Source: a virus. From it: 44,533 nucleotides of DNA. A program made the position numbers and the translations under genes. This document shows, piece by piece, positions 1-44,533 of this stretch (position 1 is its first letter; each line of letters opens with the position of its first letter). Where the stretch lies: the IMG/VR virus record IMGVR_UViG_3300050020_000071, positions 1-44,533 of that record; one strand, written 5' to 3'. The notes under the pieces are model-generated. The model did no database searches. It was given only the letters and a program-made list of their open reading frames with translations, and was not told the DNA's origin.

Positions 1-1
1 G

Positions 2-316
2 AACACCGGCTACTGGAACACCGGCGACAGGAACACCGGCGACAGGAACACCGGCTACTGGAACACCGGCGACAGGAACACCGGCGTCGGGAACACCGGC
101 GACTGGAACACCGGCGTCGGGAACACCGGCGACAGGAACACCGGCGACAGGAACACCGGCAACAGGAACACCGGCTACTGGAACACCGGCGACAGGAACA
201 CCGGCGACAGGAACACCGGCAACTGGAACACCGGCTACTGGAACACCGGCGACAGGAACACCGGCTACTGGAACACCGGCAACAGGAACACCGGCAACTG
301 GAACACCGGCGTCGGG
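2..316 (+). repeat. 15-bp tandem repeat, 21 units (left part)
   Basis: Twenty-one head-to-tail 15-bp units. Nine bases (AACACCGGC) are invariant, followed by two variable codons of form NNC and NGG. The pairs seen are TAC-TGG, GAC-AGG, GAC-TGG, GTC-GGG, AAC-AGG and AAC-TGG, so TAC always goes with TGG and GTC always with GGG. The array encodes NTG[YDVN][WRG]. It continues the array at 44276-44533. Confidence 0.97.
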
Positions 317-553
317 AATCAGGGTGATTATCATTCTGGCTCGTTAAATCACGGAGAAGCGCCTATTTATCTGTTCAACAAAAAAGTGTCGATTAATAGG
401 AATGATATTCCGTGGTCGCTCATAAACCAACTCGCTTATTTATTGACGGGAGACGAGGATATTGACCCTTCCCCATTTTTGGGCATACCCAACGCATCAG
501 TCAAAGCAATTAAGGCGCTGCACGAAGCGCACAAAAAAGCACGTAAGGCATGA
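2..553 (+). CDS. DUF7666/pentapeptide-repeat protein, C-terminal part (partial)
   Basis: C-terminal part of a protein whose N-terminus lies at the right end of the window (43973 onward). It opens with 21 in-frame NTGxx units of 15 bp, followed by three degenerate units (NQGDY, HSGSL, NHGEA). A non-repetitive tail of about 60 residues begins PIYLFNKK and ends KKARKA before TGA at 551. A repeat block followed by a short tail with a 'FNK' motif is known from phage pentapeptide-repeat proteins. Joining the two window ends directly shifts the frame; merging the shared GAAC (4 bp) restores a perfect repeat. The true repeat number across the join is therefore unknown, with at least 38 units visible. 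Function unknown; possibly a beta-solenoid binding surface. Confidence 0.8.
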   Translation, partial: NTGYWNTGDRNTGDRNTGYWNTGDRNTGVGNTGDWNTGVGNTGDRNTGDRNTGNRNTGYWNTGDRNTGDRNTGNWNTGYWNTGDRNTGYWNTGNRNTGNWNTGVGNQGDYHSGSLNHGEAPIYLFNKKVSINRNDIPWSLINQLAYLLTGDEDIDPSPFLGIPNASVKAIKALHEAHKKARKA

Positions 554-7935: not shown

Positions 7936-7993
7936 TATAACGGGGCGGCGGATGAGCAGCTGTCCCGCGCAGCGGGGTGTCTGTCTCTATCCG

Positions 7994-8027
7994 TTGGTTC
8001 GACGCCCCGGAGGGGCGGACAAACCAA
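7994..8027. repeat. Hairpin, related to the one at 8442-8472
   Basis: TTGGTT (7994-7999) pairs with AACCAA (8022-8027) and GCCCC (8004-8008) with GGGGC (8012-8016), around a GGA loop with a mismatched interior. Flanking bases and core (CCGTTGGTT...GCCCCGGAGGGGC) resemble the second hairpin at 8442, suggesting duplication. Confidence 0.75.
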
Positions 8028-8111
8028 TGTAAAGCAGTGTGTCAGGGGTCGATTCAGACCTGCGCCGCCTGTGAATCAGATTGCTGGCCGAAGGCCATAA
8101 GGGGGTTGACG

Positions 8112-8372: not shown

Positions 8373-8441
8373 TTTAATTTTGTCGGCGGCAAGCCGTGGC
8401 GCGGGTTTGAATCGGCCTTCATCAGCTGCTCATCCGCCGCC

Positions 8442-8472
8442 CCGTTCGTTGCCCCGCAGGGGCGACGAACGG
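8442..8472. repeat. Strong 14-bp-stem hairpin
   Basis: Bases 8442-8455 (CCGTTCGTTGCCCC) pair with 8459-8472 through one G-T wobble, around a GCA loop. No T-run follows, so it is not a typical terminator. It overlaps the right 24-bp inverted repeat. Confidence 0.85.
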
Positions 8473-8521
8473 CTTAAGTACAGCAGCGGGCTTCATCGCC
8501 TGCTGCTACGTTTTGTTATAT
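8464..8521. repeat. attC-like imperfect palindrome
   Basis: Read on the minus strand, the layout is TATAACAA, a stem containing GCAGCAGGC, loop GATGAA, stem GCCCGCTGCT, then a spacer and GCCGTT. The ten-base stem is 8482-8491 with 8498-8507 (one wobble). It is clearly related to the site at 40957-41015. This order (R box, spacer, L box, loop, L box, spacer, R box) is that of integron attC sites. It lies between the 86-aa and 128-aa genes. Confidence 0.55.
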
Positions 8522-8536
8522 TTCGTGGGAGGATTT

Positions 8537-8923
8537 ATGAGTGTCCAATTTGAAAAGTGGTGCGAAAACAATAAAGAAATATGCGGGGCTACAGTCAACT
8601 ACCGTTGGATTAAGGCGGCTTTTCTGGCTGGTTGCGAAGCTGGCAGCGAAGAAGAGGCTGAACGATGGAGCGAAGGGCTCAATTTTCTCCATACCGAGTA
8701 CGGCGCCGACTGCTCCGGTTGCGATAGTGGCGACCCGCTGGATTGCGTAGAGGTCGAAATTGGACAGGCTATCGAAACAACAACAATGAGCGCGGTCAGG
8801 GATTGCTACCAGATAGCATCATCACATGAGTTCGGGCCTGATGCCGCAAAGACAATCCGGGAAACATTCGGGTTAGAAATAAAACATCAAGCTCACCGGC
8901 CCGCCCGGTGCAGCGTAAGTTAA
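8537..8923 (+). CDS. Hypothetical protein (128 aa)
   Basis: Start at 8537 chosen because GTGGGAGGA precedes it; an earlier in-frame ATG at 8513 overlaps the palindrome. The product begins MSVQFEKWCENNKEICGATV, continues with YRWIKAAFLAGCEAGSEEEAERW and has a CSGCDSGDPLDC cluster near residue 61. The opening WI.AAF.AG pattern is typical of small, poorly characterised phage proteins. Function unknown. Confidence 0.55.
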   Translation: MSVQFEKWCENNKEICGATVNYRWIKAAFLAGCEAGSEEEAERWSEGLNFLHTEYGADCSGCDSGDPLDCVEVEIGQAIETTTMSAVRDCYQIASSHEFGPDAAKTIRETFGLEIKHQAHRPARCSVS

Positions 8924-8934
8924 AGGAAGACACA

Positions 8935-21220: not shown

Positions 21221-23893
21221 TTGACTCAGGGAATAGTCCAGAGCGCGTTTACTCAGGGAGAGATTGCCCCGGCCCTCTATGGTAGAGTAGACTTTGAAGG
21301 TTACTACAAAGGACTCAAGACCTGTAGAAACATGATAGTTTCAAAGTATGGTGGAGTAGATAACCGCCCTGGTACTCAGTTTATTTCCGAAGTTAATGAT
21401 TCAACCCACCTCGCAAGGCTTATACCTTTTCAGTACAATAACCAGCAGACCTATGTTTTAGAGCTTGGTCACAAGACCATGCGGATTATTGCAAATGGCA
21501 TGTTAATAACCGGAGCCTCGGCATATAGTATAACATCCGCATCAATTTCATTAGTTGACTCCTTTTATGTCGCCACTTTCACTGTGATCAGCCATCCGTT
21601 CACTACTGGTAATTTCGTTTCGTTTACAGGTGTTGCTCCTGAATTAAGTTCAAATACTCTTTGGAACGTAACTGTTGTAGATGTTAATACAATCCAGATA
21701 ACTAACACCCCCTCAACTCTGACATGGACAGGTGGAGGTGTGGTACAAAAACCAAATAATAACATCTTGGTAGTGACAACTCCGTGGAAAGATACTGACC
21801 TTAACCAACTAAAATTCACTCAATCAGCCGATGTTATAACGGTTTGTCATCCCTTATATCCAACACAGCAGATAGAACGCATAGGTGCAACAACGTGGTT
21901 AGTAACCCCATTTCTGAACGTCAACGGGCCTTTCCAAGATATCAACGTCAATAAAGGGATAACCGTCTATGCTTCCAATGTGTCTGGTGCTGGGGTAACT
22001 GTAACCGCTTCGGGCAACCTATTCACGGCTGATATGGTGGGACTTGAATTCTATATACAGCAATCACCAGACGACACAACCCCAGCTTGGGAAGTGGATA
22101 AAGTTACGACCATCAATGATATCGTGGTCTTTGGTAATAACTTCTACCAAGCTGCGACCAATGAGACAACCGGCACAGTAGGGCCAACCGTTACAGAAGG
22201 ATCACAGCGCGACGGCAACCCTGGCGTTCTTTGGAACTATCTCCATTCTGGTTTTGGGATAGTCAAAATAACCGGCTTTACCGATGCCCAACACGTTACA
22301 ACCACGGTGATTTCAAGACTCCCTGATTTGGTAGTCAACGCAACTACCTTGGTGAATGTAACAAACGTTGTAACCGGCGATTCAATGACCTCCCAGCCGG
22401 TACAGGTTACAACTCAATTCCCTAACACGTTCGCCACAAACGACCAACTCAACCTGTCTGGTATATTGGGAGCGATTGAGGCTAACGGAACTTTCGTTAT
22501 TACGGTCATAGATAGCCAGAACTTTTATCTTAATGGCTTATTTACTTCAACAGCGTATATCTCAGGTGGCACAGCTTCTAAGACTTCCGTTGCCATTCCT
22601 TCTTATCTATGGGCGCTTGCTGCGTGGGGATCTTCGCAAGTATATCCCGGAACAACGGCTTATTTTCAAGACCGTCAATTATTTGGCGGTACAAACGGAC
22701 AGCCCTCTAATATCTGGTTAAGCACCACAGGGGGGTTTGCTGACTTCTCCGTAGGCAACCCCGTACTTGATTCGGACGCAATAACCTATAAAGTCCTTTC
22801 TAATCAGGTCAATACAATCAAGCACATGATGGAACTCACCTACCTGCTGATATTTACATCAGGCGGTATCTACATGGTTCAGGGCGGGGCGACTGGAAGT
22901 GGAGTCATAACCCCTTCGACTATCACGCTGAACTTCCAAGGTGCCAACCCTGTCAGTGATGTTGCGCCGCTGAGAATCAATAATTACGCCTTATTCATCC
23001 AACAGAAAGGTACTCAAGTAAGGACGCTGGGTTTTTCGTTCGCTGAAAACGCCTTTATAGGTCAAGATGTTACCACTATGAGCAATCATTTATTCCAGTT
23101 CTGGACGCTCAACGCCTGGGCATATCAGGAAATCCCTTACGCCTGCGTCTGGACTGTCAGGAGTGACGGTGCCCTTTTGGGGCTTACGTTCAACCCTGAA
23201 CAGCAGATAACCGGCTGGCATCGACACGACACCCAGGGTAAGTTTGAATCAGTCTGTTGCATTACAGAAGGAAGCACAGATGTTGTATATTTTATCGTCA
23301 ACCGGACTCTGAACGGGCAAACTGTCAGATGTATTGAACGCATGGCCCCCCGGCAGTTCCAAGACGTGAGAGATCAGTATTTCGTTGACTGCGGGTTAAC
23401 CTATGACGGCAGGCTGACTAATACCTTTGCTACGGTCTTCTCAGGGCTTGACCATCTTAACAGTGAGATAGTTTCAATCCTCGCTGATGGGATGGTCTTA
23501 CCGCAACAGGTTGTGTCTGGAGGTTCAGTAACCATCGACACCCCTGCCCTTGTCGTTCACGTCGGGCTGCCTTACATATCCGACTTTGAAACTCTGGATA
23601 TAGCTTCTCAACGTGCCGACGTTAGAGACAAGAAAAAGGCTGTCAATGCAGTATCGCTGATCGTGGACAAGTCCAGCGGCTTCATGGTAGGCCCAGACGT
23701 TAATGCTCTTGTACCCGTTACCCAGAGGTCAACAGAGAACTACGGCGCACCGACTGATTTGATTACAGGACTTCTGGATGAAAATATCCCCTGCGGATGG
23801 GACAAGAAAGGGCGTATATTTGTAAGACAATCCAACCCGCTGGCGCTGTCTATTCTGGCGGTAATACCTCAAGTCGAAGTAGGTGGAAATTGA
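21221..23893 (+). CDS. Tail tubular protein B / nozzle (890 aa)
   Basis: TTG start at 21221, 2 bp after the previous stop. The opening IVQSAFTQGEIAPALYGRVDFEGYYKGLKTCRN and GVDNRPGTQFISEV is the gp12-type nozzle signature ('G..Q..(S)F..GE.SP.L.GR.D...Y..G...(L).N'). Later parts are beta-rich, as expected for the nozzle propeller. Ends with an overlap (TTGA) into the gp13-like gene. Confidence 0.92.
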   Translation: MTQGIVQSAFTQGEIAPALYGRVDFEGYYKGLKTCRNMIVSKYGGVDNRPGTQFISEVNDSTHLARLIPFQYNNQQTYVLELGHKTMRIIANGMLITGASAYSITSASISLVDSFYVATFTVISHPFTTGNFVSFTGVAPELSSNTLWNVTVVDVNTIQITNTPSTLTWTGGGVVQKPNNNILVVTTPWKDTDLNQLKFTQSADVITVCHPLYPTQQIERIGATTWLVTPFLNVNGPFQDINVNKGITVYASNVSGAGVTVTASGNLFTADMVGLEFYIQQSPDDTTPAWEVDKVTTINDIVVFGNNFYQAATNETTGTVGPTVTEGSQRDGNPGVLWNYLHSGFGIVKITGFTDAQHVTTTVISRLPDLVVNATTLVNVTNVVTGDSMTSQPVQVTTQFPNTFATNDQLNLSGILGAIEANGTFVITVIDSQNFYLNGLFTSTAYISGGTASKTSVAIPSYLWALAAWGSSQVYPGTTAYFQDRQLFGGTNGQPSNIWLSTTGGFADFSVGNPVLDSDAITYKVLSNQVNTIKHMMELTYLLIFTSGGIYMVQGGATGSGVITPSTITLNFQGANPVSDVAPLRINNYALFIQQKGTQVRTLGFSFAENAFIGQDVTTMSNHLFQFWTLNAWAYQEIPYACVWTVRSDGALLGLTFNPEQQITGWHRHDTQGKFESVCCITEGSTDVVYFIVNRTLNGQTVRCIERMAPRQFQDVRDQYFVDCGLTYDGRLTNTFATVFSGLDHLNSEIVSILADGMVLPQQVVSGGSVTIDTPALVVHVGLPYISDFETLDIASQRADVRDKKKAVNAVSLIVDKSSGFMVGPDVNALVPVTQRSTENYGAPTDLITGLLDENIPCGWDKKGRIFVRQSNPLALSILAVIPQVEVGGN

Positions 23894-40190: not shown

Positions 40191-40229
40191 GCCGCCTTTC
40201 GGACACCTCCCCGATTGGCGGCTTTTTTT
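40191..40229 (+). terminator. Rho-independent terminator of the late operon
   Basis: GCCGCC (40191-40196) pairs with GGCGGC (40217-40222), followed by seven T (40223-40229). A second small stem (ACCGG/CCGGT, 40167-40171 with 40182-40186) precedes it. It separates the rightward late operon from the leftward right arm. Confidence 0.9.
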
Positions 40230-40240
40230 GCCCTGAAATC

Positions 40241-40289
40241 ATAAAACCAGCGGATACACCGTATAAAACGGTGATCCTTGGTGTTATAC
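40241..40289 (-). repeat. attC-like imperfect palindrome overlapping a stop codon
   Basis: Minus strand: GTATAAC, ACCA/TGGT, AGGAT/ATCC and CACCG/CGGTG stems with unpaired bases, loop TTTTATA, then GGTTTTAT. The TAA of the 210-aa gene (40284) lies in the TATAAC box. The stem is 40257-40261 with 40269-40273, then outer pairs. No T-run on the minus strand, so not a standard terminator. Confidence 0.5.
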
Positions 40290-40916
40290 ATCTTCGCAAT
40301 CATCTTCATCCTTGAATGCCGCGATAAAATCATCAGCACTCGGCAGCGCAGAAAGCTGAAAAGTTTCCCAATGCTTCACCGCGTAATAGCAGTAGTCATC
40401 AAACTTCGCTCTTTCATTTATCGGAGATTCCACGAACCGCTCCCCGGCTGGAACTGGTGCCTTGTTGAATCCCTTGTAAACCTCGAACGTGCCTTTATCC
40501 AGATCCACAACATAGGCGTATTCGCACGACAGAGAATCACCTGCAAAGTCAATGTTGTTTCTCAGCAGAATTTCTGCATCTTCTGAATTGGCGACGGCCT
40601 CCAGGATCTTTCCGCCCAGATCACGGTGAACATAAGTCTGAAACCACCTTTTCTGCTCCGGTGTCCGGTTGTCAGGGTCACTCGACCACTCCGGGCAGTT
40701 CTTGTCATACTCCGCCAAAAAATCTTTGTCCCGGCCCTCGCCATCCAGGAAGCGAACCCGCTGCAAAGCAGATTTCAGCTTTTCAATGTTGCCGTCACCA
40801 GACAGAAATTCAAGTATCGTTTTCCCCTGTCCTTCGGGGTAGCCGTCCCATTGACCGTATTGAGCAACCTTGTATTCTCCGTTCATAATCACCGCTGTTA
40901 GATTTCGTGTTCCCAT
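40284..40916 (-). CDS. Conserved hypothetical protein (210 aa)
   Basis: Begins MGTRNLTAVIMNGEYKVAQY, then GQWDGYPEGQGKTILEFLS, an opening I recognise in proteins of phages, plasmids and accessory DNA but of unknown role. The C-terminal half has EYAYVVDLDKGTFEVYKGF. AGGGAGG precedes the ATG. Its stop TAA is inside an attC-like TATAAC box and a second attC-like palindrome lies 41 bp upstream of the start, so the gene is flanked on both sides. Confidence 0.65.
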   Translation of the reverse strand: MGTRNLTAVIMNGEYKVAQYGQWDGYPEGQGKTILEFLSGDGNIEKLKSALQRVRFLDGEGRDKDFLAEYDKNCPEWSSDPDNRTPEQKRWFQTYVHRDLGGKILEAVANSEDAEILLRNNIDFAGDSLSCEYAYVVDLDKGTFEVYKGFNKAPVPAGERFVESPINERAKFDDYCYYAVKHWETFQLSALPSADDFIAAFKDEDDCEDV

Positions 40917-40956
40917 TTGTTCCTCCCTTTTATTTTAACGTGGTAAGTGCTTCGAT

Positions 40957-41015
40957 GTATAACAACGCCTCGCAGCGGGCGATAAGGCCCGCCGCTGAAG
41001 GCGCAGCCGTTATTT
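40957..41015. repeat. attC-like imperfect palindrome (best example)
   Basis: Plus strand: GTATAAC-AA-CGCC...CAGC-GGGC, loop GATAAG, GCCC...GCTG...GGCG-CAGC-CGTTATTT. Pairs: ATAAC/GTTAT (40959-40963 with 41009-41013), CGCC/GGCG, CAGC/GCTG and GGGC/GCCC, with bulged bases between. This is the R''-L''-loop-L'-R' order of integron attC sites, including the frequent TATAACAA and CGTTAT ends. Confidence 0.65.
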
Positions 41016-42520: not shown

Positions 42521-42556
42521 TTGTAAGCGTCGCCCGAAAAGGCGCTTTTGTTATAC
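42521..42556 (-). repeat. Short palindrome with TATAAC box (weak attC-like site)
   Basis: AAGCG (42525-42529) pairs with CGCTT (42543-42547), CC/GG inside, loop CGAAAA. On the minus strand it starts with GTATAAC, which contains the stop of the 71-aa gene. Same position and box as the other sites but with a shorter stem and no clear right-hand box. Confidence 0.35.
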
Positions 42557-42766
42557 AACGGTATCAGCGGAATATTTAGTCCCCATCGGCCTGTAATCTT
42601 CGTTAGCCGTTTTGCCGCACTTCTTACATGGCATCCGTGGGATCACATTTCGATGGAAATTATCATCGTCGTATCCATATCCCTTTTCTTCTGTATTGCA
42701 ATGTTCGCAAACATAAATTGCCGTAAAATCCCGTCTACTCTGTTCTGTAATTTCCTTTATTTTCAT
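42551..42766 (-). CDS. Zinc-ribbon protein (71 aa)
   Basis: CEHC (about residues 20-23) and CKKC (about 47-50), with YVCEHCNTEEKGYGYDD between strand-like segments, a standard one-zinc ribbon. Ends KYSADTVV with TAA in a TATAAC box. ATGA overlap with the 84-aa gene upstream. Function unknown. Confidence 0.6.
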   Translation of the reverse strand: MKIKEITEQSRRDFTAIYVCEHCNTEEKGYGYDDDNFHRNVIPRMPCKKCGKTANEDYRPMGTKYSADTVV

Positions 42767-43602: not shown

Positions 43603-43645
43603 AACTCACGCGACACGGGACAAGCCCGTGAACTTACTGTTATAC
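43603..43645 (-). repeat. attC-like hairpin overlapping a stop codon
   Basis: CACGGG (43614-43619) pairs with CCCGTG (43625-43630) around ACAAG; outer AAC (43603-43605) matches GTT (43639-43641). On the minus strand it opens with TATAAC, holding the TAA of the HTH gene, and closes with GTTGGAA, close to the integron GTTRRRY box. No T-run. Confidence 0.45.
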
Positions 43646-43822
43646 AAGATCATCCAGCTTCATCCCCAGACCCTTAGCAATACGCTTGCAGGTTCCAAGG
43701 GAAGCGCCCTTTTTTCTCATGGCGTTTTCGATAGACCTGACCGACATAATAGCTTTGTCTGCCAGTTCCACGGTGCTGACCTGCCTGTCTTCCATATTTT
43801 CTTTCAACCTCGTTAGAACCAT
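43640..43822 (-). CDS. Cro/CI-type HTH regulator (60 aa)
   Basis: XRE-family DNA-binding domain with no other domain. Helix 2-3 region VSTVELADKAIMSVRSIENAMRKKG, then CKRIAKGLGMKLDDLV, the usual ending of a single-domain Cro-like protein. It faces the promoter region shared with the repeat-protein gene and probably represses from the dyad at 43883-43902. Confidence 0.85.
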   Translation of the reverse strand: MVLTRLKENMEDRQVSTVELADKAIMSVRSIENAMRKKGASLGTCKRIAKGLGMKLDDLV

Positions 43823-43972: not shown

Positions 43973-44533
43973 ATGAGATCGCAACAGGAATTACTATCCG
44001 GGCCGGTAGAGGGATACAAAATCGTAAATGCGGATATGACATGCCGTGATTATCAATTTGAGGTCGGCAAGCGCCATAAACTCCCGAATACCGATGCACT
44101 CAAATTGTGCGAAAACGGGTTTCATTTCTGCCAATATCCGTCTGGGCCGTGGGCATATTATCAAGAAGGCAGAATTTTCAAAGTAAGAGCCTATGGTGTT
44201 CTGGTTCAGAAACTAGAGCCGGGTGCTGATTATAAACTCGTTTGTGAAGAAATAGAACTGTATGAAGAGATAAAAAACACCGGCAACTGGAACACCGGCT
44301 ACTGGAACACCGGCAACTGGAACACCGGTGACAGGAACACCGGCGTCGGGAACACCGGCAACTGGAACACCGGCAACAGGAACACCGGCGACAGGAACAC
44401 CGGCAACTGGAACACCGGCGACAGGAACACCGGCGACAGGAACACCGGCAACAGGAACACCGGCGACAGGAACACCGGCAACAGGAACACCGGCGACAGG
44501 AACACCGGCAACTGGAACACCGGCGACAGGAAC
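43973..44533 (+). CDS. DUF7666/pentapeptide-repeat protein, N-terminal part (partial)
   Basis: ATG at 43973 with AAAGGAGG upstream and a strong promoter. Residues 1-101 form the DUF7666-type domain: GYKIVNADMTCRDYQFEVGK, then LCENGFHFCQYP and YYQEGRIFKVRAYG ('g.ka....(C).g..y..G......l..C..GfHfc..'). From residue 102 the NTGxx repeats begin, 17 units to the window end, and the gene continues at position 2. The full protein would be about 370 aa or more. First gene of the rightward early operon. Function unknown. Confidence 0.85.
   Translation, partial: MRSQQELLSGPVEGYKIVNADMTCRDYQFEVGKRHKLPNTDALKLCENGFHFCQYPSGPWAYYQEGRIFKVRAYGVLVQKLEPGADYKLVCEEIELYEEIKNTGNWNTGYWNTGNWNTGDRNTGVGNTGNWNTGNRNTGDRNTGNWNTGDRNTGDRNTGNRNTGDRNTGNRNTGDRNTGNWNTGDRN
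44276..44533 (+). repeat. 15-bp tandem repeat, 17 units (right part)
   Basis: Seventeen units plus a final AAC of the same 15-bp repeat as at 2-316. Variable codon pairs in order: NW, YW, NW, DR, VG, NW, NR, DR, NW, DR, DR, NR, DR, NR, DR, NW, DR. One unit has GGT in place of GGC; otherwise the first nine bases are invariant. Confidence 0.97.

Follow-up and report, generated by a model that had tools for sequence, protein, structure and literature searches.

The prevailing view of integrons is that they are platforms with which bacteria capture genes and which phages carry off from time to time. Integrons and CALINs have already been described in phages, virulent ones included, and IntI1 proved able to recombine five of the six phage attC sites that were tested (Qi et al. 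2023, PMC9892861). The loci described here resemble those phages in having attC arrays with small genes in both temperate and virulent members, in carrying methyltransferase cassettes, and in mostly lacking IntI. The complete integrons of that study were, however, fragments of class 1 or host integrons, whereas our integrases fall into phage IntI clades; its "typical" arrays hold cassettes that all point in one direction, as in bacteria, whereas ours run antiparallel to attC with the stop codon in R'; and the cassette pool reported here, unlike that of PMC9892861, spans phage types. Phage-borne integrons are known, and the antiparallel phage layout is the new point.

The sedentary chromosomal integrons of Geobacterales share with the phage loci the IntI family, a related attC sequence, and the probable host group. 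They differ in that most of their ORFs run parallel to attC and stop in R'', their integrases belong mostly to other clades, and the type of attC that we call C-type was seen, among 57 genomes, only within a prophage. In the reverse integrons of Treponema denticola, the ORFs are also parallel to attC (PMC7691350, PMC6557892), and these systems are like the phage loci in that intI and the cassette genes have the same direction; their cassettes, however, lie downstream of intI with the stop in R'', whereas those of the phages lie upstream of intI, pointing to it, with the stop codon inside R'. Class 1 aadA-type attC sites are almost the same as C-type phage sites at their ends, with TAACAA(TT/AA)CGT on the left and ACTCAAGC(C)GTTA on the right, and the C-type phage right arm (TACTCAAGCCGTTATA) is almost identical to its class 1 aadA counterpart (AACTCAAGCGTTAGA); the two differ in stem and loop sequence, in one extra C before R', and in gene orientation.

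The window, the whole stretch of DNA analysed here, is a 44,533-base IMG/VR virus record. Its genes include those for terminase, a head-tail adaptor, DnaB, NinG, NinB/Orf, and single-strand annealing, and one of its large structural proteins is about 44% like the epsilon15-like podovirus counterpart; judged by this predicted gene set, the window phage is an epsilon15-like podovirus. A megablast search with 25 kb of the window found no match among annotated phages, Rfam and tRNA scans of the window found nothing, and the window has no integron integrase, so it is not a complete integron. Both record ends (window 1-439 and 44171-44533) have a 15-base repeat in common, an array that would encode NTGNW/NTGDR-like repeats in one frame and fills both ends, which suggests a circular or permuted genome cut within the array.

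The preliminary description had reported an integron attC-like palindrome at 40957-41015, and its ends, spacers, and bulged stem are all as described. Read on the plus strand, where it is flanked by two minus-strand genes, the site (40958-41015) is TATAAC-AACGCC...GGCGCAGC-CGTTATTT; ATAAC of its TATAAC box pairs with GTTAT of its GTTATTT box, and the 7-mers deviate somewhat from strict RYYYAAC/GTTRRRY. The attC reading gains from an independent covariance model, R1, built exclusively from 20 bacterial attC sites, which we took from plasmid integrons (class 1 and others) and from phage-carried integrons of Vibrio and Shewanella. Searched with filters off, the window gave 40958-41015 on the plus strand as its best match (19.7 bits, with a moderate and rough E value of 0.014); the runner-up reached 10.1 bits at an E value of 4. 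Our own scorer, which combines R-box weight matrices with stem energy and was trained partly on phage sites, 40958-41015 among them, gave the site 38.1; in 605 kb of dinucleotide-shuffled sequence it found one match of at least 24 and none of at least 26. Some scorer matches within long coding genes (for example, L189 19464-19583 and window 22421-22502) are probably due to chance and were rejected. The bottom strand of the site folds better than the top strand, as that of an attC should (-17.8 versus -14.1 kcal/mol; z -2.8 versus -1.6), and the exact positions of its extrahelical bases are not clear-cut. Overall, the case for 40958-41015 being an attC is strong.

Sites of this kind flank small accessory genes and are common to several phages, as the preliminary description had envisaged. 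An internal 26-mer of the window site, GCAGCRGGCGATRARGCCCGCYGCTG, is present in 11 further viral contigs, nearly always between TAACAA...CCGTTA ends as in the window, and a 53-nt core of 40958-41015 is found exactly in viral contig L173 and in the podovirus contig of the Geobacter MAG (G001:C222). There, the attC at 7993-8050 is identical to that of the window at 57 of 58 positions, and the two phages have no further nucleotide similarity. G001:C222 encodes portal, major head, terminase, and internal virion proteins together with an integron integrase, and holds 14 attC sites by our scorer. Runs of at least two attC sites were found in G001, G003, G004, G006, G008, G009, G010, G011, G012, G018, and G019. 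G030, which is related to the Geobacter MAG, contains a Mu-like prophage (G030:C32; MuA, MuB, repressor, endolysin, and terminase small subunit) with IntI and six attC sites, one of them C-type; this is the one genome among 57 Geobacterales in which the C-type pattern occurs. The host range of the pool is read from such relatives, and many of its phages probably live on Geobacterales.

Some cassettes have apparently moved between these phages. Identity between G004 (37650 onward) and G006 (6433 onward) begins at CGTTATGCC and runs through a near-identical attC to GCGTTAT, where it ends, and the neighbors differ. A cassette with limits of the same kind (CG|TTAT) and different neighbors is common to G009 and G010, and G006 and G017 share one cassette edge only. 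The evidence for swapping thus comprises two complete pairs plus a half pair, that is, two cassettes common to otherwise dissimilar phages with identity bounded by CG|TTAT at both ends, which is what integrase-mediated cassette exchange would predict. Pfam and PHROGs name few cassette proteins; the recognizable ones are mostly DNA methyltransferases (C5, N6/N4, and MT-A70), as in L223 6467-7976, L257 3346-4771, and L303 9488-10105.

The cassettes of these phages are laid out as the mirror image of the usual plan, in which, although this is not strictly defining, the ORF is parallel to attC and stops in or near R''. The longest ORF is antiparallel to attC in 47 of 51 intervals between neighboring phage sites. 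When we counted antiparallel ORFs of at least 50 aa that end exactly at the TAA complementary to the TTA of R', 43 of 65 phage sites had such a stop, where a random TAA would be expected at 11%, while parallel ORFs ended in R'' at 7 of 64. The Mu-like prophage has the stop in R' at all six of its sites. Among Geobacterales chromosomal integrons, the stop lies in R' at 1 of 19 sites and in R'' of a parallel ORF at 11 of 23; for class 1, Vibrio, and Shewanella integrons, the figures are 0 of 17 and 9 of 17. With sites called by R1 only, phage and viral-IntI loci gave 18 of 24 antiparallel and 2 of 25 parallel stops, and host or bacterial loci 0 of 13 and 7 of 14. Related loci enter these counts repeatedly, so they are not independent trials. 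Bulges lie mostly on the left arm (51 phage sites versus 5; 8 versus 0 in the bacterial control), so that the phage attC set has the extrahelical bases of the L'' arm, and the R'' end points toward intI in loci where intI adjoins the array. By these counts, the mirror-image layout is well supported, given the orientation call on which it depends. More distant viral IntI loci (L184-L220) have longer attC sites and the same layout as other phages, with attC upstream of intI on the opposite strand and ORFs toward intI. In the open-access literature searched (most subscription papers and all preprints being outside this scope), we came across no publication that describes antiparallel cassettes alongside phage IntI lineages.

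Full-length IntI passed the curated TIGR02249 cutoff in all six phage loci scanned, that of G001 with 316 bits against 265. Full IntI together with attC sites occurs in the podovirus with 14 attC, in the Mu-like prophage, and in several IMG/VR phages; the integrase gene lies beside the array, as in a complete integron, in G001, G017, G018, and G019, and beside a single site in G005. Our scorer found no attC in G020, which has IntI, or in L226 (Virus Rctr41k), which has an IntI-like recombinase. A tree of 67 IntI rows, in which long branches leave the deeper placements unsure, joins G001, L180-L183, and the Mu-like prophage in one clade (100/97) and 19 other viral IntI in a separate one (100/99), with two large host groups apart from both. 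One sequence first taken as a host IntI, L281, was found to lie within the Mu-like prophage and was discarded as such. The IntI of another Geobacterales genome, L282 (G054), groups with that of phage L189 and could be prophage-borne. Between the attC arrays of L241 (8830-9021; G009:C1:28630-28821) lies an integron integrase fragment with an internal stop, apparently a decaying phage intI. There is good support for a pool of phage cassettes that has integrases of its own.

Features of the window read as attC sites, cassettes, or cassette remnants
Feature	Position	Strand	Remarks
Second attC	8464..8520	-	R' degenerate, GTTCGTC
Cassette ORF	8537..8923	+	128 aa; antiparallel to attC 8464-8520
Decayed attC	8879..8924	-	R'' TTTAAC, R' GTTTTAT; recognized from the L272 alignment
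Weak, partly decayed attC	40242..40289	+	R'' AAAAC, bulged A in left arm, R' GTTATAC; other edge of the cassette
Predicted complete cassette	40284..41009	+	726 bp: TTA (stop), ORF on minus strand, attC
Cassette ORF	40284..40916	-	210 aa, phrog_30528; antiparallel to attC; many viral homologues
attC site	40958..41015	+	R'' TATAAC, R' GTTATTT; top strand read on plus
R'-like TATAAC	42550..42555	-	Holds TAA stop of ORF 42551-42766; sequence only, weak
R'-like TATAAC	43639..43644	-	Holds TAA stop of ORF 43640-43822; same basis, weak

On sequence grounds, both cassettes of the window fit the mirror-image phage plan, and the genes next to both sites run against the site read from TATAAC to GTT. The attC at 40958-41015 stands behind the start of the 210-aa ORF, whose TAA stop is the reverse complement of the TTA in an R' box at 40283-40289. 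The site that would hold this box scores 21.8, a value at which a few matches per 605 kb of shuffled sequence are expected, so that it is weak by score alone; it is placed relative to the ORF stop as the phage rule predicts, and a slightly longer region (40225-40300) folds on the minus strand with a z of -3.46. The 726-bp cassette is deduced from the two G|TT cut points of these sites, that of the strong attC being predicted between 41009 and 41010. Beyond it lies the NinB gene, the stop of which is not in R'; the TATAAC at 42550-42555 is possibly a remnant of a third cassette edge, and that at 43639-43644 possibly a cassette remnant.

The second copy that had been proposed at 8464-8521 is present as a related palindrome, read on the minus strand from 8520 to 8464 as TATAACAAAACGTAGCAGCAGGCGATGAAGCCCGCTGCTGTACTTAAGCCGTTCGTC and flanked by two plus-strand genes, but its R' is damaged, with GTTCGTC in place of the expected GTTRRRY, and an R1 search of the window up to an E value of 10 did not match it. 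The ORF beside it is homologous to attC-adjacent cassette genes of L272 and G012, and the last 13 residues of its product are translated attC: the L272 homologue ends at the equivalent point in R' (...GLEI*), while the window protein continues through the old attC as KHQAHRPARCSVS, the loss of TTA from the R' of 8879-8924 having removed the stop codon so that the ORF reads through the site. The same protein seems to be a mosaic, with a G012-like middle and an L272-like end. Palindromes at 7936-8010 and 8385-8452 fold well and yet have no attC score; they hold a perfect 24-nt inverted repeat (7939-7962 and 8423-8446) that begins at the AAC of a TATAAC, and they may be mosaic or decayed attC sites. 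For the window cassettes we found homologues beside attC sites and no exchange pair like those of G004/G006 and G009/G010, and comparison with the nearest relative, G013, revealed no empty site for them. With a single strong site, a broken R' in the second, and decay at the two remaining edges, the cassettes of the window itself may have lost their mobility.

Our results lead us to conclude, with a probability of roughly 85%, that the palindrome is an attC and that the window phage holds at least two cassettes from a pool shared among phages, many of them probably living on Geobacterales. Were the palindromes instead REP or MITE elements or transcription terminators unrelated to integrons, their being short, conserved, palindromic, and intergenic would be explained, and so would the unusual constancy of the 26-mer core among phages. 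We find this scarcely credible, given the match to an independent attC model, the IntI genes that adjoin arrays, the cassette junctions at G|TT, and the lack of any Rfam match. Host genomes, moreover, are without copies except in phage contigs: rather than being scattered in chromosomes, as the preliminary description had considered for such repeats, the 24-base core pattern had a single match in about 85,000 species genomes, in a 58-kb phage contig of a Geobacter MAG. A subtler objection is that R'' and R' have been assigned the wrong way round, so that attC and gene orientation agree, cleavage falls at the TATAACGGC end, and a canonical layout remains in which only the consensus differs. Sites of this kind are nearly symmetric, and in gene orientation the stop would fall in R'', as in ordinary integrons. 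This is nevertheless quite unlikely, as our orientation is backed by the strand choice of the bacteria-trained model, which takes the antiparallel strand throughout, by the bulges, which occupy the canonical arm, and by the R'' end, which faces intI in IntI-bearing phages as in known integrons; a host site (L294 9173-9232) closely similar to L223 6404-6456 also has parallel ORFs.

The cassettes might, alternatively, be ordinary bacterial ones taken from a host chromosomal integron as a CALIN, with no phage-specific system involved. Virulent phages are on record as carrying CALINs whose sites IntI1 can use (PMC9892861), and Geobacterales have many integrases (above the cutoff in 30 of 57 genomes) and related attC sequence (L294). 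We nonetheless consider such an origin improbable: host arrays are mostly parallel with the stop in R'' and phage arrays are the reverse, the only C-type attC among the Geobacterales genomes sits in the Mu-like prophage, and phage IntI are mostly in separate clades. The earlier proposal that this phage carries integron cassettes therefore stands, while the partner in exchange, at first thought to be a host integron, is better sought mainly in a phage pool, since related phages have IntI lineages of their own and their cassettes mirror those of hosts. Exchange with a host integron, with the host supplying the integrase to the IntI-less window phage, is possible.

With a pool shared among phages as the preferred reading, we propose that cassettes would move as folded bottom-strand attC sites recombined at G|TT by an integron integrase that some members of the pool encode. 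Lacking IntI, the window phage would have to borrow the enzyme, presumably from a co-resident phage or the host. Pool ORFs lie antiparallel to attC, so that the genes face the phage integrase gene and the stop codon is supplied by the first bases of the cassette, the TTA of R'. Phage transcripts, rather than an integron Pc promoter, probably provide for expression of the cassettes, and methyltransferase cassettes would fit a role in counter-defense. On balance, we think it probable that tailed phages have an integron network of their own, with phage-lineage integrases and a mirror-image pool, several DNA methyltransferases included, that is swapped across phage types and uses the R' box as a stop for expression within phage operons.

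If this is true, phages use cassette recombination as their own route for swapping accessory, and perhaps anti-restriction, genes, a meaning that rests on the phage IntI clades, on a pool exchanged across phage types, and on an orientation opposite to that of bacterial integrons. The mirror-image layout bears on where cassettes come from, and would offer a simple test of whether a given cassette originates from a phage or a host integron.
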